A DNA stretch of 58,297 bases from Bryobacterales bacterium (GTDB lineage Bacteria; Acidobacteriota; Terriglobia; Bryobacterales; Bryobacteraceae), in assembly GCA_019261985.1 (NCBI GenBank), contig JAFAQY010000058.1:1-58297 (forward strand). The letters are read 5' to 3'. Shown one piece after another: positions 2,240-57,757 of this stretch. Below the pieces are notes generated by a model. That model saw only the letters and a list, made by a program, of their open reading frames with translations. It was not told the DNA's origin and ran no database searches. Position numbers and translations under genes: made by a program. How positions within the stretch are numbered: position 1 is the stretch's first letter; every line of letters begins with the position of its first letter.

Positions 2240-3799
2240 ATGAAGAGCGCAGCCATTTTCTTTAGCTCAGCCGCGGTGTGCTGGAGCCAACCGATCATTT
2301 CCGCCGTCGAAGATGCCGCCAGCAATATTCCGCTCAAAACATTCGGGTCGCCGCCGAGTTTCGCGAACGCAAGCATTGCTCAGGGATCTATGTTCGTGGT
2401 TAAAGGAAACGGATTAGGACCCGCATCTATCGTGGTAGCGAACTCGTACCCTCTGCAAACCACGCTTGCGGGAACATCCATTCAAATCGTGGTCTCTGGA
2501 ACGGCTACGAACGCGATCATGTATTACACGCAGGCGCAGCAGGTCGCGGCGATTCTGCCCTCCAGTACGCCGGTGGGCGCAGGCCACATCAGCGTCTATT
2601 ACAACGGCCAATATAATTCGTTCGACATTTACGTTGTACAAAACAACGTTGCGATGTATACAGTGGACGAGTCCGGCGGCGGGGATGCGGTTATCACCCT
2701 TGCGGACAACAGTTTGGTGATGCCGAATAATGCGCCAAACCCTGGCGATACGGTTGTTTTTTTGGCGAATGGCCTCGGCCCGGTTTCGGATGACGAATCG
2801 TTGCCGGCCACTGGCGGCGATATGACATCCGTTCCTCTGGAAGTGTTCATCGGCGGCCAGCCCGCGAAAGTGCTCTACCGCGGCAGAAATACGTGTTGCG
2901 TTTCTCTAGACCAAATCAACGTCCAAATCCCGCAAAATGTGAGCACGGGCTGTGTGGTTTCGGTGACGATGAGAATCGGCACCCTGGTAAGTAATACGAC
3001 CACGATGCCCATCAGGTCTTCGGGCCGGGTCTGCACGCCGACTAATCCCGCCATTTCACAGGCGGATGTGCAGCACCTGATGAGCCAGAAATCGCTGAAC
3101 ATTGGGATCATCTCGCTGGAGCGGAGCATCCCCCGATCAGGCGTTGACGTACTCACGCCCAGCTTCAAAAAAGTGTCGGGGCTCCCATCGCTGGTGCTGG
3201 ACGAGTTGGTGGATGTCCCAGCGCCTGGTTCCTGCACGGTCACTTACAATTTCGTTGGGAATAATTGGTATTTGAAGCTCCCCAACGCCAATTTGGATGC
3301 CGGAAGTATTGCGTTAAGCGGCCCGACGGGTGTTATCGCAATCCCAAATAATGGCGGGCGTTTTCTTGATCCCGGTCCGTACACCGTGACAGCCGCGGGT
3401 GGCGCGGATATCGGCGCATTTCAAATGGTGGAACGTGTTCCCCCGGCGTTTACTTGGAATTACTTGAACAATAGCACCATAGAAACGTTCGACCGCACGC
3501 AGGGAATTACCGTCACATGGTCTGGGGCCAACTCCAGCAGCTATGTCACGATTAGCGGTTACGGGAATGACGCCTCCTCGACGACTTTCTTTTCTTGCAC
3601 CGCGCGTGTTTCCGACGGGAGTTTCACAGTGCCGCCATTGGTTTTACAATCTCTTCCGGCGGACGGAACAATCATGGGTGCGGTAGAGATCGAGGCCGTG
3701 TCGATCCAGGCGCCGTTTGCCGCAAAAGGTTTGGATTTTGGCATCGCGTGGGCCGCGGAGTACGACGCGAGCGGGCTTGGTACAGTCGTCTTTCAATGA
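2240..3799 (+). CDS. Secreted protein with Solibacter-type TIGR03437 domain
   Basis: 519 residues. A short signal peptide ends near WSQ (residue 17). Residues about 40-260 carry the TIGR03437 signature: QGSMFVVKGNGLGP, a TQAQQVAAILPSSTPVG block, GDTVVFLANGLGPVS, and a stretch before VSVTMRIG containing DQINVQIP. This domain is an immunoglobulin/IPT-like beta fold abundant in Solibacter and relatives. The C-terminal half (about 280-519) is a separate beta-rich region with no family I can name. It probably acts outside the inner membrane. It stands alone between the adaptor operon and tsaB. Confidence 0.8.
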   Translation: MKSAAIFFSSAAVCWSQPIISAVEDAASNIPLKTFGSPPSFANASIAQGSMFVVKGNGLGPASIVVANSYPLQTTLAGTSIQIVVSGTATNAIMYYTQAQQVAAILPSSTPVGAGHISVYYNGQYNSFDIYVVQNNVAMYTVDESGGGDAVITLADNSLVMPNNAPNPGDTVVFLANGLGPVSDDESLPATGGDMTSVPLEVFIGGQPAKVLYRGRNTCCVSLDQINVQIPQNVSTGCVVSVTMRIGTLVSNTTTMPIRSSGRVCTPTNPAISQADVQHLMSQKSLNIGIISLERSIPRSGVDVLTPSFKKVSGLPSLVLDELVDVPAPGSCTVTYNFVGNNWYLKLPNANLDAGSIALSGPTGVIAIPNNGGRFLDPGPYTVTAAGGADIGAFQMVERVPPAFTWNYLNNSTIETFDRTQGITVTWSGANSSSYVTISGYGNDASSTTFFSCTARVSDGSFTVPPLVLQSLPADGTIMGAVEIEAVSIQAPFAAKGLDFGIAWAAEYDASGLGTVVFQ

Positions 3800-5934: not shown

Positions 5935-6028
5935 TTAGTTCTCAGTTGTCAGTTATCAGTTATCAGTTTTCAGTTATCAGTGCCGCGTGCGCCAAACTGA
6001 TCACTGACAACTGACAACTGAGAACTAA
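5935..6028. repeat. CAGTTNT heptad palindromic element
   Basis: Five heptads starting at 5943 read CAGTTGT, CAGTTAT, CAGTTAT, CAGTTTT, CAGTTAT. The outer 18 bases (5935-5952) are the exact reverse complement of 6011-6028, and the arms extend inward about 14 more bases with two mismatches. The left part is non-coding. The right part is read through by the FAD reductase gene, whose stop (5970-5972) lies inside a heptad. Confidence 0.9.
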
Positions 6029-20144: not shown

Positions 20145-20209
20145 CTCGCAAAGACGCAAAGATCGCAAAGAAAAACAAATTAACTTTGCGATCTTTGCGT
20201 CTTTGCGAG
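20145..20209. repeat. Perfect 26-bp inverted repeat (CGCAAAGACGCAAAGATCGCAAAG type)
   Basis: Left arm 20145-20170 and right arm 20184-20209 are exact reverse complements, with the 13-base A-rich loop AAAAACAAATTAA. A cruciform or strong RNA hairpin is possible. It sits downstream of the decarboxylase. Confidence 0.92.
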
Positions 20210-38339: not shown

Positions 38340-39770
38340 ATGCGGTACGCGCTGATTGCGTTTTCCTTTTCAGTTTTTGCGGCGGACGTTGAGACGCATT
38401 CGCCCGACGGAACCACTCCGCTGCATTGGGCCGTGCGGAATGACGATCTCGCAACGGTCGACAAGCTGATCAAAGCCGGAGCGGATGTGAAGACCGCCGA
38501 CCGCTACGGCGTCACGCCTCTGTACCTCGCTTGCACCAACGCCAGCGTGCCGATCATTCGCAAGCTGCTGGATGCGGGCGCGGACCCGAACGCTCCTTAC
38601 GCCTCAAACGGCGAGATACCGCTGATGACGGTGATTCATGCCGAGGACAACGTGGACGCGCTCAAGGCGCTGCTCGATCGCGGCGCGGACGTCAACATAA
38701 AGGACACCGTCGCCGGCGAGACGGCGTTGATGTGGGCGGTGCGCGAGAATCGTCCGCTTTCTGTGAGATTGCTGCTCGATCACGGCGCGCAAGTGGATAT
38801 CAGCACGCGCATTGGGAAGAGACCCGCTGCGCGTCCGCCCAACGCAGGCGGCGGATCGCATGGAGCAGGAATCGTCCGCAGCGGCTGGCCCGAGCGCGGT
38901 TTTCAAGATGCGACTCCGGGTGGTATGACCGCGCTGCTTTACGCGTCGCGCGACGGCCGGATGGAGACCGCGCGCATGCTGCTGGACTCGAAAGCCGGCG
39001 TAAATCTGGCGGAAGCGAATAAGCTGACCCCGCTTCTTATTGCGATCCTGAATAACCACATCGAGCTCGCGAATGTGCTGCTGGAGCGTGGCGCGGATGT
39101 GAACGCGCGGGATTTCTGGGGCCGGACGCCGCTATGGGCGGCAGTGGAATTGCGAAACCTGGATGTGAATAAAACGGATAATAACGGTGTCGATCGCGCG
39201 GCCGCGTTGAAATTGATCGACACCCTGATCGGTCGCGGCGCGAACGTCAACGCACGCACGCAGGAGGTGCCGCCGATCCGGCGCTGGATCATGCCGCTGG
39301 GAGACCTTTCGTGGGTGGACTTCACGGGGCAAACGCCGTTCCTGCGGGCGGCCCTTTCGGGCGATGTGACCGTGATGCGCCTGCTGCTTCAGCACGGCGC
39401 TGATCCGAATATCCCAACTTTATCGGGCACAACCGCGCTAATGGCAGCCGCCGGCGTGAACTGGATGGGAGGGCAGACGTATACGGAATCCAAAGAATCG
39501 CAGCTCGAAGCAGTGAAGCTGTGCGTTGAGAAGGGCGCTGATGTGAATGCTGTGAACTCGATGGGCATCGGCGCGGTGATCGGGGCCGTCAATCGCGGGT
39601 CCGATGACATATTGCAGTACCTGGTGGATCGCGGCGCTCGCCTCGATATAAAGGACAACGAGGGGCGCACGCCCATGGTGTGGGCGGAAGGCGTGTTTCT
39701 GGCGACGAATCCTCCGGAGCGAAAGCCGAGCACGGTGGCGCTGCTGCAAAAGTTGGGGGCCGGGAAGTGA
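38340..39770 (+). CDS. Exported ankyrin-repeat protein
   Basis: 476 residues. A short signal peptide (about 1-15) and about nine ankyrin repeats (TPLHWAVRNDDLATVDKLIKAGADV and similar). A Gly/Pro/Arg linker near 160-185 separates the halves, as in the protein at 24300. Blocks such as FTGQTPFLRAALSGDVTVMRLLLQHGADP closely match that relative. Its stop overlaps the GTG of the DUF1592 gene. It probably acts as a protein-binding partner of the cytochrome. Confidence 0.9.
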   Translation: MRYALIAFSFSVFAADVETHSPDGTTPLHWAVRNDDLATVDKLIKAGADVKTADRYGVTPLYLACTNASVPIIRKLLDAGADPNAPYASNGEIPLMTVIHAEDNVDALKALLDRGADVNIKDTVAGETALMWAVRENRPLSVRLLLDHGAQVDISTRIGKRPAARPPNAGGGSHGAGIVRSGWPERGFQDATPGGMTALLYASRDGRMETARMLLDSKAGVNLAEANKLTPLLIAILNNHIELANVLLERGADVNARDFWGRTPLWAAVELRNLDVNKTDNNGVDRAAALKLIDTLIGRGANVNARTQEVPPIRRWIMPLGDLSWVDFTGQTPFLRAALSGDVTVMRLLLQHGADPNIPTLSGTTALMAAAGVNWMGGQTYTESKESQLEAVKLCVEKGADVNAVNSMGIGAVIGAVNRGSDDILQYLVDRGARLDIKDNEGRTPMVWAEGVFLATNPPERKPSTVALLQKLGAGK

Positions 39771-42049
39771 AGAGTGTGTTCAGTAGGACAAGCTTCAGCT
39801 TGTCCTCTCTAGTGGACAAGCTGAAGCTTGTCCTACTTTCTGCGTCTTTCTGTTTTGGGCAGAACGCGGTCATAAACCAATACTGCGTCACCTGCCATAA
39901 CGAAAAACTGAAGACCGGCGGGTTGATGCTCGACAAGCTGGATGCAGCTCATCCCGGCGACAACGCGGAAACCTGGGAGAAGGTCGTCCGCAAAATCCGC
40001 GCGGGCATGATGCCGCCGAGCGGCGCTCCACGGCCGCAACGCGCCGCGCTCGATTCGCTTGCCGCGAGTCTGGAAAACGAGCTGGACCGAGCCGCGGCCG
40101 CGCATCCTAACCCTGGCGCCCCGGGATTGCACCGCCTCAACCGCACTGAGTACGCAAATGCGATTCGCGATCTGCTCGATATTGAAGTTGACGCGGCCAC
40201 TCTGCTTCCCGCCGACGATTCAAGCGAAGGGTTCGACAATGTTGCCGATGCGCTGGCAGTTTCCCCAGCGCTGCTGGAACGCTATGTGGCGGCGGCCGAA
40301 AAGATCAGCCGGCTTGCGGTGGGCGATATGCTGACGACAGCAGCGACGGCCACCTATCGCGCTCCCTCTGACTTGTCGCAAACCGATCACCTGGAAGGCT
40401 TGCCGTTGGGGACGCGGGGCGGGATTCTCTTCCGGCACAATTTCCCTTTGGATGCCGAATACTCGTTTAGAGTTCGCGCCCGCGCGGCAGCCATCGGCTT
40501 AGGCGCAACCGGATTTCAAGATGAAGATATCGAAATCACGCTAAACGGCGAGCGGGTGAAGCTGGTGAAGGCCGCGCCCTCGATCGATTTCAAACTGGAC
40601 GTGAAGGCTGGGCCGCAGTCGATTGGCGTTGCCTTCGTGCGCAAGAGCGGTCCCGGCGCAGACGATTTGTGGCAGACCTACGCGAACAATTCGGGCGTGC
40701 AAAGCGTAGCGATTATTGGGCCGGTAAATGCCACCAGTGCGGGCGACACGCCGAGCCGCCGCCGCATTTTCGTTTGCCGCCCGGCGAATCCCGCCGAAGA
40801 AACTACCTGCGCGAAGAAAATCATCGCCACGATTGGGCGCCGCGCCTACCGCCGGCCCGTGAGTGACGCCGATCTTGAAACGCTTCTGAGCTTTTATCAG
40901 GCTGGGCGGAATCACAGCGATTTCGATAAGGGCATTCAGCAGGCGCTGGCGCGCATTCTGGTAAGTCCGCGCTTCGTCTTCCGGTTCGAGCGCGACCCGG
41001 CCGACGTGTCGCCCGGCGGCATTTATCGCATCACCGACCTGGAGCTCGCGTCTCGGTTGTCGTTTTTTTTGTGGAGCAGCATTCCCGATGACGAGTTGCT
41101 GAACATCGCGGCTGCAGGCAAATTACATGACGCGGTTGTGCTGGAGCAGCAGACCCGCCGCATGCTGCTTGATCCGAAGGCAGAATCGCTTGCGACGAAC
41201 TTCGGCGGCCAATGGCTGTACTTGCGCGAGCTGAAAAACCAGCGCCCCGAAACAAAGGAATTCAACGAAAACCTGCGCCAATCGTTCCGGCGCGAGACGG
41301 AATTGTTCCTCGGCAGCATCATCAATGAAGACCGGAACGTGCTCGATCTGCTGAACGCCGATTACACGTTTGTCGACGAGCGGCTAGCACGGCATTATGG
41401 CATTCCGCATATTCACGGAAGCCAGTTCCGCCGGGTTAAGGCGCCGGAGGAGCGGCGCGGGCTGCTGGGCCAAGGAAGCATACTGCTGGTGACTTCGGTG
41501 GCGACCCGGACGTCACCGGTCGGCCGGGGCAAATGGATTCTCGAAAACATTTTGGGCAGCGCGCCTCCGCTGCCTCCGCCGAATGTTCCACCCCTCCCGG
41601 AGAGCGCGGGCGCGACCGTTCCGAGTTCCGTGCGGCAGCGCATGGAGGAACATCGCACGAATCCGGTTTGCGCGTCTTGCCACAAGATTATGGACCCGAT
41701 CGGCTTCTCGCTCGAGAATTTCGATTTGATCGGAAAATGGCGCGCCACCGATGGCGGTATTCCGATCGATGCGGCCGGGGCGCTGGTGGATGGAACGAAG
41801 ATCGACGGTCCGGCGAGCTTGCGGGAAGCGCTGCTGAGCCGCTCGGATCGTTTCATTTCGACCCTGACCGAAAAACTGATGGTTTACGGGCTCGGGCGCG
41901 GATTGAAATATTACGACATGCCGGCTGTGCGCGCGGTTACGGGCGAGGCAGCCAACTATGACAACCGCTTTTCAGCGCTCGTTATCGGTATTGTGAAAAG
42001 CGAGCCGTTTCAGATGCGTATGCAAGCACAGGAGACGAATTCCCAATGA
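39767..42049 (+). CDS. DUF1592-type cytochrome c-like protein
   Basis: 760 residues from the GTG at 39767, which overlaps the ankyrin stop. Order: signal peptide (1-31, mostly encoded by the palindrome at 39782-39837), heme motif CVTCH at 40-44, then the DUF1587, DUF1595, DUF1592, DUF1588 and DUF1585 blocks typical of Planctomycetes-type cytochromes. A second CxxCH (CASCH, 635-639) falls in the DUF1588 part. These proteins are probably periplasmic electron carriers; their reaction is unknown. Its stop overlaps the DUF1552 start (ATGA). Confidence 0.9.
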   Translation: MKSVFSRTSFSLSSLVDKLKLVLLSASFCFGQNAVINQYCVTCHNEKLKTGGLMLDKLDAAHPGDNAETWEKVVRKIRAGMMPPSGAPRPQRAALDSLAASLENELDRAAAAHPNPGAPGLHRLNRTEYANAIRDLLDIEVDAATLLPADDSSEGFDNVADALAVSPALLERYVAAAEKISRLAVGDMLTTAATATYRAPSDLSQTDHLEGLPLGTRGGILFRHNFPLDAEYSFRVRARAAAIGLGATGFQDEDIEITLNGERVKLVKAAPSIDFKLDVKAGPQSIGVAFVRKSGPGADDLWQTYANNSGVQSVAIIGPVNATSAGDTPSRRRIFVCRPANPAEETTCAKKIIATIGRRAYRRPVSDADLETLLSFYQAGRNHSDFDKGIQQALARILVSPRFVFRFERDPADVSPGGIYRITDLELASRLSFFLWSSIPDDELLNIAAAGKLHDAVVLEQQTRRMLLDPKAESLATNFGGQWLYLRELKNQRPETKEFNENLRQSFRRETELFLGSIINEDRNVLDLLNADYTFVDERLARHYGIPHIHGSQFRRVKAPEERRGLLGQGSILLVTSVATRTSPVGRGKWILENILGSAPPLPPPNVPPLPESAGATVPSSVRQRMEEHRTNPVCASCHKIMDPIGFSLENFDLIGKWRATDGGIPIDAAGALVDGTKIDGPASLREALLSRSDRFISTLTEKLMVYGLGRGLKYYDMPAVRAVTGEAANYDNRFSALVIGIVKSEPFQMRMQAQETNSQ
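39782..39837. repeat. Perfect 24-bp-arm palindrome inside the DUF1592 signal sequence
   Basis: Left arm 39782-39805 and right arm 39814-39837 are exact reverse complements around TCTCTAGT. The core word is GGACAAGCTTCAGCTTGTCC. A degenerate half-copy is seen at 57077-57104. Confidence 0.95.
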
Positions 42050-43371
42050 CGTTCATCGCCAAAAAGCATCTCCCCCGGCGGACATTTTTGCGGGGGGTGG
42101 GCGCGGCCGTGGCGCTGCCCTTGCTCGATTCGATGGTGGCGGCGCAAACGCCGCTGGCTAAGACGGCCGCAAGTCCGAAGAGCCGTTTGAGCTGCATCTA
42201 CGTTCCTCACGGGGCGACGATGTACAAGTGGACCCCCGAGAAGGAAGGCGGCGGCTTCGAGTTCCCCGAAATTCTAACTCCGCTTGAAAAATTTCGCGAC
42301 CGCGTGAACGTCATCACCAATCTCGCGCATCCCGCGGCCGGCGGCGTCGGCTCGGATGCAGGCGCGGATCATGCGCGCTCGGCGGCTGTGTATCTGAGCG
42401 GCGTGCATCCGGAGCAGGGCTCGGTTCACGTCGGCACGACTCTCGACCAGTACGTCGCGGAAGCCATCGGGCAGGACACGCCTCTGCCGTCGCTGGAAGT
42501 CTCGATCGAAGAAGTCGCTTTAAGCTGCGGGTCGGGGTACGCTTGCGCATATTCGAACACGATCTCCTGGAAAACCGCCACCACGCCGCTGCCGATGGAA
42601 AACAATCCGCAGGTGGTGTTCGAGAAGTTGTTCGGCGATGGCAGCAACGCGGCGGATCGCGCGGCGCGCAAGCAGGAAGGGCGCAGCCTGCTCGATTCGG
42701 TGATGGGCGAGGCGGCTTCGTTGCAAAAAGAACTGCCCGCGCACGACCGCGCCCGGCTCAGCGAATATCTGGACGATGTCCGCGAGATCGAGCGGCGCAT
42801 TCAGAAAGCGGAGCGCCAGATTCCGGAAGATTTGAAAATCCCTGAAGCGCCCGTGGGCATTCCTGAAGCATTCGACGATCACTTCAAGCTGATGTTCGAT
42901 TTGCAGATCCTCGCGTTAAAGGCCGAGATCACCCGGGTCACGACAATGATGTACGCGCGCGATACCAGCGGGGCGGTGTATCCGCAGAGCGGCGTGCGCG
43001 ACGGGTTCCATGTAGCTTCACACCACTCGAATGTGCGCGCCAGTATGGACAAATTCGCCTTGATTAACCGGTATCACGTGCAGTTGCTGGCCTATTACCT
43101 GGATAAGCTTCGCGCGACGCCGGACGGCGACGGGTCGCTGCTCGATCACTCGATGGTGTTATATGGCAGCAGCATGAGTAATGGAAATCAGCACGATCAC
43201 GATCCGCTGCCCATCATCCTCGCGGGTGGCGCGGCAGGGCAGCTAAAGGGCGGACGTCATCTGCAATTCGCCGCGCACACGCCCATGTCGAATCTCCTGT
43301 TGGCGATGGCGGACAAGCTGGGCGTACATCGCGCTAGCTTCGGCGATAGCACGGCCAAACTCGAAATTTGA
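42046..43371 (+). CDS. DUF1552 domain protein, Tat-exported
   Basis: 441 residues. Twin-arginine signal (LPRRTFLRGVGAAVALP). Family blocks: WTPEKEGGGFEFPE, HVGTTLDQYVAEAIG, CAYSNTISWKTATTPLP, NPQVVFEKLFGDG, VLYGSSMSNGNQHDHDPLP. It is a paralogue of the protein at 26146. It is the last gene of the operon and overlaps the DUF1592 gene by four bases, so the two are made together and probably form a complex. Confidence 0.9.
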   Translation: MTFIAKKHLPRRTFLRGVGAAVALPLLDSMVAAQTPLAKTAASPKSRLSCIYVPHGATMYKWTPEKEGGGFEFPEILTPLEKFRDRVNVITNLAHPAAGGVGSDAGADHARSAAVYLSGVHPEQGSVHVGTTLDQYVAEAIGQDTPLPSLEVSIEEVALSCGSGYACAYSNTISWKTATTPLPMENNPQVVFEKLFGDGSNAADRAARKQEGRSLLDSVMGEAASLQKELPAHDRARLSEYLDDVREIERRIQKAERQIPEDLKIPEAPVGIPEAFDDHFKLMFDLQILALKAEITRVTTMMYARDTSGAVYPQSGVRDGFHVASHHSNVRASMDKFALINRYHVQLLAYYLDKLRATPDGDGSLLDHSMVLYGSSMSNGNQHDHDPLPIILAGGAAGQLKGGRHLQFAAHTPMSNLLLAMADKLGVHRASFGDSTAKLEI

Positions 43372-56170: not shown

Positions 56171-57064
56171 TTGCCGTCCATTAGCATGAAGGAATTGCTC
56201 GAAGCCGGCGTTCATTTCGGGCACCAGACCAAGCGCTGGAATCGAAAGATGAAAGAGTACATCTTTGGCGAACGTAACGGTATTTACATCATCGACCTGC
56301 AAAAAACGCTGAAGCTTTTTAAAGATGCTATGCGTTATGTGGGCGAAATGGCCGCGCAGGGTAAGACCGTGTTGTTCGTCGGCACCAAGCGCCAGGCGCA
56401 AGAGGCAGTCGCCGAGGAAGCCGGGCGATGCCAGCAGTACTACGTCAATCAACGATGGTTGGGCGGCCTGCTCACGAACATGAGCACCGTGCAGCGCTCC
56501 ATCAAACGCCTGAAGGATCTGGACGCGATGGCCGCCGAAGGCAACTGGGACGGCCGCGCGAAAAAGGAAGTGATCCGCTTGGAGCGGGAGCGCAAGCACC
56601 TGAATCAAAACCTGGCCGGCATCAAGGAAATGAACGGCCTGCCGGACTTGCTGTTCGTCATCGATTCCAATAAGGAGAGCATCGCGGTCGACGAGGCGCG
56701 CAAGCTTGGCATCCCAGTGGTGGCGGTTGTCGACACCAACTGCGATCCCGACAAAGTGGACTACGTCATCCCCGGCAATGACGACGCGCTGCGCGCAATC
56801 CGCCTGTTCACCATTAAGGTCGCGGACGCCGTAGTCGAAGGACGCCAGCTCGCGACCGAGCAGGACTTCACGGCCGAAAAGATCGTCACCGGCGATGAGA
56901 CGCCTGTCGAAGAGATTCCTGAATACTCGCAGTACGTCGACCCGAAGTACAACGAGCAGCTAATGTCGGAGAGCATGCCGGACGAGGATCTGCCGTCGAT
57001 GTCGCTGCCGCGTAAGGGCCCGGCTTCGGAAGTAGTGGAAGAAGCTACCATCCGGAACCAGTAG
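56171..57064 (+). CDS. rpsB: 30S ribosomal protein S2
   Basis: 297 residues from a TTG. Homologues begin [20 protein letters not shown], so the TTG fits better than the internal ATG. Conserved blocks: [62 protein letters not shown] and VVDTNCDPD. The acidic tail after about residue 245 is lineage-specific. Its 118-base leader after rpsI has no gene. Confidence 0.97.
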
Positions 57065-57076
57065 GACACACGAGAA

Positions 57077-57104
57077 GCAGTAAGACAAGCCTCAGCTTGT
57101 CAAA
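57077..57104. repeat. Degenerate half-copy of the AAGCTTCAGCTTGTCC palindrome
   Basis: TAAGACAAGCCTCAGCTTGTC resembles the left arm at 39782-39805 but lacks the right arm. It lies between rpsB and tsf. Confidence 0.5.
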
Positions 57105-57148: not shown

Positions 57149-57757
57149 ATGGAAATCAGCGCACAATTGGTAAAACAGCTCCGCGAGAAGACCGGAGCCG
57201 GAATGATGGAATGTAAATCTGCCCTGGTAGACGCCAAGGGCGACGCGGCAGAAGCCGAAGTGATTCTGCGAAAGAAGGGCATCGCGCGCGCGGCCGGGAA
57301 AGCCACGCGCTCGACCAAGCAGGGCGTCATCGCCAGCTACATTCATCCGGGCGCGCAGCTTGGCGTATTGATCGAGGTGAATTGCGAGTCGGACTTCGTG
57401 GCCCGCACGGAGGACTTTCAGGCCCTGGTGCACGACCTCGCCATGCAGGTGGCGGCGGCCGATCCGCAGTTTCTGCGCAAAGAGGACGTGACGGAAGCCG
57501 CGCTCGCCAAGGAGCGGGAAATTCAACGCGCCCGCGCGCTTGCCGAGGGCAAGCCCGAGAAGATGGTCGATAAGATTGTCGACGGGCGGATGAACAAATA
57601 TTACGAGGAAGTGTGCCTGATGGAGCAGCCCTTCATCAAGGAAAACACCACCACAATCTCCGATCTGATTAAACAGAAAATCGCGAAGCTAGGCGAGAAT
57701 ATTTCTGTGTCGCGATTTGTGCGCTACAAGGTCGGCGACACCGCGCCCTCGGAATGA
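57149..57757 (+). CDS. tsf: Elongation factor Ts
   Basis: 202 residues, the short form of EF-Ts, with no extended C-terminal half of the E. coli type. The N-terminal UBA-like domain reads LVKQLREKTGAGMMECKSALVDAKGD, followed by the core IEVNCESDFVARTEDFQ. EF-Ts reloads EF-Tu with GTP. It follows rpsB in the standard order. No Shine-Dalgarno is obvious before the ATG. Confidence 0.96.
   Translation: MEISAQLVKQLREKTGAGMMECKSALVDAKGDAAEAEVILRKKGIARAAGKATRSTKQGVIASYIHPGAQLGVLIEVNCESDFVARTEDFQALVHDLAMQVAAADPQFLRKEDVTEAALAKEREIQRARALAEGKPEKMVDKIVDGRMNKYYEEVCLMEQPFIKENTTTISDLIKQKIAKLGENISVSRFVRYKVGDTAPSE

Follow-up and report, generated by a model that had tools for sequence, protein, structure and literature searches.

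In the available text of Bertels and Rainey (2011, PMC3116915) and Di Nocera et al. (2013, PMC3733652), GTAG REPs and their inverted dimers (REPINs) are characterised by a GTAG foot, a short palindromic unit, a high copy number and a tyrosine transposase (RAYT) flanked by REPs, and intragenic copies are on record in several species. The Rickettsia palindromic elements (RPEs; Ogata et al. 2000), as described in the accessible parts of PMC10969869 and PMC3733652, are palindromes of about 150 bp (PMC10969869) lying in frame within unrelated protein genes, with RPE-4 and RPE-6 classed as CGTC-type REPs (PMC3733652). In Yersinia, the sections available of Delihas (2007; PMC2759123, PMC2229807) present the 168-bp RU-2 element in YPO1552 as one highlighted case, along with weaker ones such as YPO2495, the proteins being putative. 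Both REPs within genes and a repeat-built signal peptide are already published; in the literature searched, which comprised articles without their supplements, no signal peptide built from a REP or REPIN, no recurrence of REPs in export signals and no sorting of REPs by reading frame was found.

The locus examined here lies in a window of 58,297 nucleotides (the whole stretch analysed) from a Bryobacterales bacterium and contains a perfect palindrome with 24-bp arms (39782-39805 and 39814-39837) and an 8-nt loop, with a fold z-score of -10.5 against 200 shuffles. The palindrome is a REPIN formed by a head-to-head, inverted pair of GTAG-footed REP units, spanning 39783-39836 on neither strand in particular (54 nt or 18 codons), as identified by the hairpin and exact unit matches; pairing is perfect for one further base on each side (39782-39837). 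The first unit, GTAGGACAAGCTTCAGCTTGTCC (39783-39805, forward strand), is read by the gene as RTSFSLS and the second (39814-39836, reverse strand) as DKLKLVL(L); both match the family unit exactly and start with GTAG, unpaired beside the palindromic unit. The spacer between them, TCTCTAGT (39806-39813, forward strand), holds bases one and two of a GTG (39812-39814) that could serve as an alternative start codon. At up to 3 mismatches, the 20-nt core occurs at three places in the window (39786, 39814 and 57083) against 0.01 expected by chance. What the original prediction had called a degenerate half-copy at 57077-57104 is indeed a single REP unit with 3 mismatches (57080-57102, forward strand), intergenic between an ORF ending at 57064 and one starting at 57149, which we take, by recognition without a search, to be rpsB-like and tsf-like, respectively.

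The assembly, 138 contigs from one strain, contains about 250 units of the family: the core is present at 246 places if up to 3 mismatches are allowed, compared with 2 for a reversed control, and the exact GTAG-footed unit at 90, compared with none for the control (a further match set of 265 counts strands, so that some units enter twice). Opposed units make up the REPIN of the window and other clusters, while many clusters are single units. A REP-associated tyrosine transposase (C119; Pfam Y1_Tnp; NCBIfam REP_Tyr_transpos, NF047646, 88.8 bits against a cut-off of 80) has family units flanking its gene to either side. The exact unit is present in none of the 22 other genomes of the genus, and among 395 other genomes of the phylum, searched at up to 1 mismatch, it occurs in one, as a single exact copy; among 204 loci from other genomes it was seen (up to 3 mismatches) only in the locus that had itself been fetched by that pattern (L258). 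The window repeat is dispersed and very probably mobile, as had been proposed, and the REP-associated transposase of this genome probably moves it in trans. Its position within a gene departs from the extragenic one expected of GTAG REPs but does not affect the assignment to the GTAG REPINs, since the available text of PMC3733652 counts copies inside genes as family members. The element works like an RPE but is not one, being a GTAG-tagged REPIN of 54 nt, with 23-nt units and an associated transposase gene, as against the roughly 150 bp given for RPEs in the accessible part of PMC10969869.

The gene that carries the REPIN (39767-42049, forward strand; 760 aa and a stop codon) encodes a DUF1592/PSCyt protein with PSCyt1, PSD2-PSD5 and PSCyt3 domains. 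Its start codon, GTG 39767, overlaps the stop codon (39768-39770) of an ankyrin-repeat gene (38340-39770, forward strand), a neighbour conserved in the orthologous loci read, and its stop is overlapped by a DUF1552 (HXXSHH) gene identified from domain matches (42046-43371, forward strand). The first landmark of the mature protein is the heme-binding motif CVTCH (residues 40-44; 39884-39898, forward strand), evident from the sequence and a domain match. Given the start at the ankyrin overlap, the repeat is inseparable from the reading frame, as had been argued, and lies in frame wholly inside the gene, coding for residues 6-24. A check of both strands for another reading found the opposite strand open across the repeat for 119 codons only. 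A defunct gene or a misassembled junction, either of which would make the reading accidental, is very improbable: misjoins could arise among 138 contigs with some 250 similar repeats, but the 736 open codons beyond the repeat resemble coding sequence in composition (score 0.28; the 58 open codons ahead of the repeat score -0.13), the two neighbours are in place, with the end of an ankyrin gene preceding the DUF1592 orthologue in all 9 loci read, and the carB and murF genes also hold in-frame units.

The putative signal peptide (residues 1-31/32; 39767-39862, forward strand), recognised by sequence and hydropathy, consists of MKSVF, the REPIN-coded S6-L24 and SASFCFG/Q, and would be cleaved near residues 31/32; the best four homologue alignments start at residues 32-33. 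It may fit the Sec pattern of a basic n-region, a hydrophobic core and a small residue before cleavage, with K18/K20 ahead of an uncharged run, L21-G31, whose best 10-residue hydropathy mean is 2.39. The original prediction that the palindrome covers residues 6-24 stands, but of the hydrophobic signal, most of which it was said to encode, just 4 of the 11 core residues (L21-L24) come from the REPIN, the rest of its contribution being the n-region. With an 11-residue core following a 20-residue n-region that includes an aspartate, this N-terminus is less typical of a signal than those of 8 orthologues, in which the uncharged runs measure 14-22 residues. In our reading, which we hold at a probability of about 0.75, a GTAG REPIN landed in the signal-coding 5' end of the DUF1592/PSCyt gene and now supplies part of the putative signal; the repeat probably spells part of the tag that sends this presumably exported protein out of the cell.

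All ATG, GTG and TTG codons ahead of CVTCH lie at or before codon 16 and the next ones lie past the motif; no start downstream of the palindrome therefore keeps the heme motif, and any start that retains it also retains DKLKLVLL. Translation from GTG 39812 at the loop edge, with the right arm alone translated (MDKLKLVLLSASFCFGQ) and the left arm acting as a feature of the leader RNA, is improbable. It would give a compact signal with the core unchanged; the ATG (1473) of L185, which we recognise as PPIase-like, is likewise placed between two REP arms (at 1442 and 1493), and the DUF6152 gene has an internal GTG at the equivalent hairpin edge. However, a purine-rich ribosome site is absent upstream of 39812, GTG 39767 forms a stop/start overlap of the kind seen with ATGA in orthologues L022-L024, and DKLKLVLL would be REP-coded even then. 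Counted from the G of GTG 39767, the hairpin starts at +16, the local RNA fold being -61 kcal/mol, and a structure predicted to be so stable near the start codon could lower expression of the DUF1592 gene.

None of the 9 syntenic orthologues read carries the repeat, and their signals differ from that of the window gene; a homologue with the same signal and no palindrome was not met among them. The (N/K)QYC landmark comes after 27-37 residues in the 8 orthologues whose N-termini were measured, after 36 in the window gene and after 18 once the REPIN is removed from it. Since the orthologous signals are repeat-free and of about equal length, replacement fits better than addition, and the REPIN seems to stand in for a portion of the signal instead of having lengthened it, presumably with loss of host sequence on arrival. 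A plain in-frame insertion into a short signal (MKSVF|ISASFCFGQ), which would have lengthened the n-region and replaced nothing, is possible, though on the unlikely side. The length of 54 nt is a multiple of 3, the joined flanks form a readable short signal (hydropathy 1.94 over 10 residues), and LLSASFCFGQ resembles LLATAPCCAQ of orthologue L052; against this, the N-terminus without the REPIN would be shorter than in any of the 8 orthologues, and on this ground pure insertion is ranked lower. Judged by eye, MurF gains about 10 codons over most relatives read, with an element of 53 nt, CarB about 1 codon over its closest relative (L236) and more over some, and DUF6152 2-3 codons, below the size of the element, comparisons that are suggestive only, the loops in these proteins varying in length. 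The REP repeat is absent from the 19 CarB and 18 MurF relatives read. The earlier proposal that the repeat became, or replaced, an export signal thus agrees with these data in its second half; the adaptive first half goes beyond them, as tolerance of a sequence-insensitive region would account for the repeat in the signal equally well.

A survey of the genome for copies inside genes covered 116 clusters (88 in 75 loci and 28 in 27 loci), seeded with exact GTAG-footed units having C (90 places) or A/T (47 strand matches, in which A-form units footed at both ends enter twice) at one centre base, neighbouring units being included in the clusters. Genes were called from open frames, codon scores and family matches. 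In-frame copies were found in genes in 15 of the 116 clusters, comprising the DUF1592 signal, 5 other probable export signals and 9 other genes. A Pfam or NCBIfam match supports 14 of the 15 genes (L305 and L140 falling under the NCBIfam cut-off), and the remaining one, L185, has homologues in 21 of the 22 other genomes of the genus. All six probable export signals use the RTSxSLS/DKLKLVL readings only, whereas seven of the nine other genes use VGQASACP/GQAEACPT only and one uses RTSxSLS/DKLKLVL only (6/6 against 1/9; Fisher p = 0.0014, a post hoc value with weak ORFs excluded). The nine include a nucleotidyltransferase gene (L179), kept in the count, in which a GTG right after the repeat may be the start, leaving the REP untranslated. 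Outside the count stand L319 (VGQASACL...GQAKACPT; weak coding score), an M20-peptidase ORF (L160) in which DKLKLVLP and two decayed copies precede RRTFLF, a sequence resembling a twin-arginine motif, the weak ORFs L006, L173:4896 and L166:3175 with DKLKLVL, and L313. The frame pattern would become stronger with L319 and L160 added, while the weak DKLKLVL ORFs would weaken it if real and not exported. Compared with the published GTAG REPs, as far as the available text of PMC3116915 and PMC3733652 describes them, 6 of 15 in-frame copies lie here in probable export signals, with the frame varying with protein context; unlike the Yersinia RU-2 case, the REPIN has five further genes with domain matches or homologues.

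REP hairpins close to gene starts might instead act as regulatory RNA and be translated as a by-product, but this is rather doubtful. Many 5'-terminal REPs have been argued to be extragenic or to act post-transcriptionally (Di Nocera et al. 2013, PMC3733652, available text), and many units in this genome lie just upstream of likely starts (for example L131, L143, L147, L159, L171, L172, L180, L316 and L323, left out of the count); the six signal genes, however, have no downstream ATG, GTG or TTG that would leave a usable-looking signal (by eye) or, in the DUF1592 gene, the heme motif. A regulatory role is compatible with a coding one.

The preferred reading, partial replacement of the signal by the REPIN, would proceed as follows. 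Mobilised by the RAYT in trans, the element would insert into the signal-coding 5' end of the cytochrome-like DUF1592/PSCyt gene and provide the basic n-region and the start of the hydrophobic core, the host gene contributing the distal part of the core and the cleavage region (SASFCFG/Q). The arrival was presumably recent, as both units are still exact. We propose that the REPIN survived there because it comprises 18 codons without a stop in that frame and because DKLKLVLL of the second unit, basic and then hydrophobic, suits the tolerant signal-peptide format; elsewhere the element would survive in other frames, within proteins not read as signals, and selection may act on the REP reading frame. 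The much broader idea of the family as a portable signal-peptide cassette appears improbable; it would have mobile REPINs rebuilding export signals time and again at the expense of host codons, in a frame and orientation picked by selection, with the inverted unit after A/GT (ATG or GTG plus GACAAGCTGAAGCTTGTCCTA, read as M/V-DKLKLVL) giving the start, a basic n-region and the first hydrophobic turn.

The five other probably exported proteins of the same kind suggest that such repeats can help build export signals. The origin of new export signals becomes testable in one genome, where six presumed signals contain a common mobile sequence and repeat-free relatives exist. In addition, the family offers a natural experiment on selection, as one and the same element can be read in four frames, and those that survive in probable export signals are not those found in other parts of proteins.

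The original prediction of a palindrome with perfect 24-bp arms (39782-39805 and 39814-39837, separated by an 8-nt loop) was confirmed, and the structure folds far better than shuffled sequences. Each arm carries a GTAG foot and is near-palindromic on its own (GTAGGACAAGCTTCAGCTTGTCC), and the structure is therefore a REPIN, an inverted dimer of two head-to-head REP units. The proposed second copy corresponds to a decayed single REP unit at 57080-57102, flanked by ORFs that we take to be rpsB-like and tsf-like. Two more long inverted repeats, at 20145-20209 and 5937-6019 (CTTTGCGTCTTTGCGAG and CAGTTGTCAGTTATCAGTT types, respectively), possibly represent other dispersed palindromic families.

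The 20-nt REP core was identified at 246 places (<=3 mismatches) in the source genome (6.49 Mb, 138 contigs), compared with 2 for a reversed control. Exact footed units number 90 (control 0), with 47 more exact strand matches in which one centre base is A or T; strand matches at <=3 mismatches number 265, some units being counted twice. The 22 other genus genomes all lack the exact unit, and at <=1 mismatch it was found in one of 395 other genomes drawn from the phylum, as a single exact copy (L258), which is also the sole unit at <=3 mismatches among 204 loci from other genomes (1.16 Mb). Five Y1_Tnp matches are present in the source genome; that on contig 119 scores above the cut-off for the NCBIfam entry named REP-associated tyrosine transposase (RAYT) and carries units of the window REP family on both flanks, and the remaining four loci show no exact core match. 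The TTAA-centred REP form provides, in the corresponding frame, the stop codon TAA to ORFs ending in VGQA or LGQA (loci L306, L307, L310, L311, L323, L325, L008, L009 and L011).

The DUF1592 gene starts with the GTG at 39767, which overlaps the ankyrin stop, and its product has 760 aa with PSCyt1/PSD/PSCyt3 domains. As predicted, residues S6-L24 of its putative signal peptide (SRTSFSLSSLVDKLKLVLL) are coded by the REPIN region 39782-39837; host sequence (SASFCFG/Q) follows, and the heme motif CVTCH occupies residues 40-44. Translation from a start downstream of the repeat was considered: from the ankyrin overlap up to the heme motif, the available starts are GTG at codons 1, 4 and 16 and TTG at codon 12, and the next ATG/GTG/TTG codons all lie beyond the motif. 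DKLKLVLL is therefore translated with any of these starts, provided that the heme motif is translated. The RNA hairpin begins at +16 relative to GTG 39767, roughly where the footprint of an initiating ribosome would end, and translational coupling to the ankyrin gene should help initiation.

Besides the window gene, 29 homologous loci were obtained from one search and 80 from another, and nine of the closest (L022-L025, L051-L054 and L057) were compared. The ankyrin frame, judged by resemblance, ends upstream in all nine; the repeat is absent from every one, and their signals are unlike that of the window gene, so that homologues sharing the signal without the palindrome were not found among them. 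L022 resembles L024, and L023 resembles L025. The (N/K)QYC landmark is preceded by 27-37 residues in the eight orthologues with a clear ATG (leaving out L053, whose start is not placeable) and by 36 in the window gene, or 18 with the REPIN omitted; the L052 signal (MKRWIYALPLALLATAPCCAQ) resembles the host-derived half of the window gene's signal (LLSASFCFGQ). Thus, the REPIN seems to take the position of the n-region and the first part of the core, and the apparent loss of host codons roughly offsets it. In L053 (around 2944-3060) a tandem CTTCTGG repeat codes for the signal peptide (FWLLASGFLFLAP), giving a second case at this locus of a signal built from a repeat.

A survey of 116 clusters (88 and 28) at 102 loci of the source genome identified 15 in frame within a gene; family hits were obtained for 14 of these genes, the exception being a PPIase-like protein. 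Six, including the window gene, lie in probable export signals. The others are those of a DUF6152 protein (MRGKHVDKLKLVLLATMMVAPVVA then HHSF), a HlyD-type lipoprotein (L135, contig G000:C24; ...RDKLKLVLLALVLVVLAGC), the PPIase-like protein (L185:1442-1515, G000:C124; MKNWRNPDKLKLVLLVAALGHG), a beta-propeller protein (MRLSPSFGRTSLSLSYCLFAAISFA) and a PQQ-enzyme-like protein with a CASCH motif (MHVSTLCRTSLSLSGTSLSLSYLLVPLIACA). In L185 a decayed REP arm (1442) and an exact one (1493) flank the start ATG (1473), and the exact arm codes the signal core DKLKLVLL. The putative signals of DUF6152 relatives have 21-22 residues versus 24 in the source genome (four of eight relatives tried were readable). 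The lipoprotein n-region also includes a translated second palindromic family (GGTTGGCAACCTGC type; L135 upstream of 1560, minus strand); a paralogue in the source genome has a simple signal (MKILFVPVLLLTVWLFGC), and no REP was found in the lipoprotein relatives. An M20-peptidase ORF (L160:1452-1640, G000:C82) opens with three decaying DKLKLVLP-like copies followed by a twin-arginine-like RRTFLF and is a possible seventh, REP-extended signal.

The nine in-frame copies outside export signals occur in carB (L145, G000:C45; reading VGQASACPT), an SMC protein gene (L168, G000:C90), murF (L177, G000:C103; a 53-nt REPIN), genes for tricorn/S41-like and heparinase-like proteins, a membrane spermine-synthase-like protein (unit read KLKLALL, adjoining hydrophobic sequence), a nucleotidyltransferase and a 2-oxoacid oxidoreductase (both N-terminal), and trpA (C-terminal). 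CarB matches PDB entries and 21 of the 22 other genus genomes, with no REP in the 19 readable relatives (the segment is unreadable at 2 loci); MurF matches PDB and 20 relatives, with none in the 18 readable. A plain insertion of 53 nt would have broken the murF frame, and the net gain of ~10 codons against most relatives compared suggests that host sequence was lost there.

Four readings of the REP unit are stop-free: VGQASACP, RTSFSLS, GQAEACPT and DKLKLVL. The six probable export signals are all confined to RTSxSLS and/or DKLKLVL, whereas seven of the nine other genes use only VGQASACP/GQAEACPT, one (spermine-synthase-like) only the RTSxSLS/DKLKLVL type and one (heparinase-like) is mixed (Fisher p = 0.0014, counted by gene and picked post hoc); as the comparison was chosen with the data already seen, it is a lead and not a test. 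Six of the eight in-frame N-terminal copies are probable export signals (p = 0.004 assuming 25% exported proteins, p = 0.025 assuming 35%).

Intragenic REPs have been published from several species, in a source that also warns that those at N-termini may be mis-annotations (PMC3733652); Rickettsia palindromic elements are classic in-frame palindromes (PMC10969869), REPIN excision is described (PMC3116915), and a Yersinia repeat contributes to the signal predicted for YPO1552, whose homologues have unrelated signals (Delihas 2007; PMC2759123, PMC2229807). Our literature search found no report of one REP family repeatedly coding export signals, or of REP frame sorting by protein context.

The analysis establishes what kind of element this is, its family and associated transposase, its position in frame, the absence of the repeat from the orthologues compared, and its recurrence. 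Target loss is suggested at four loci (window gene, carB, murF and DUF6152), because the net gain, counted by eye at three of them, is smaller than the element. The REPIN would have reached the window gene via RAYT-mediated movement, either displacing nearby codons on arrival or being followed by codon loss. Signal peptides accept almost any basic-then-hydrophobic sequence, and the REPIN may persist owing to this tolerance.
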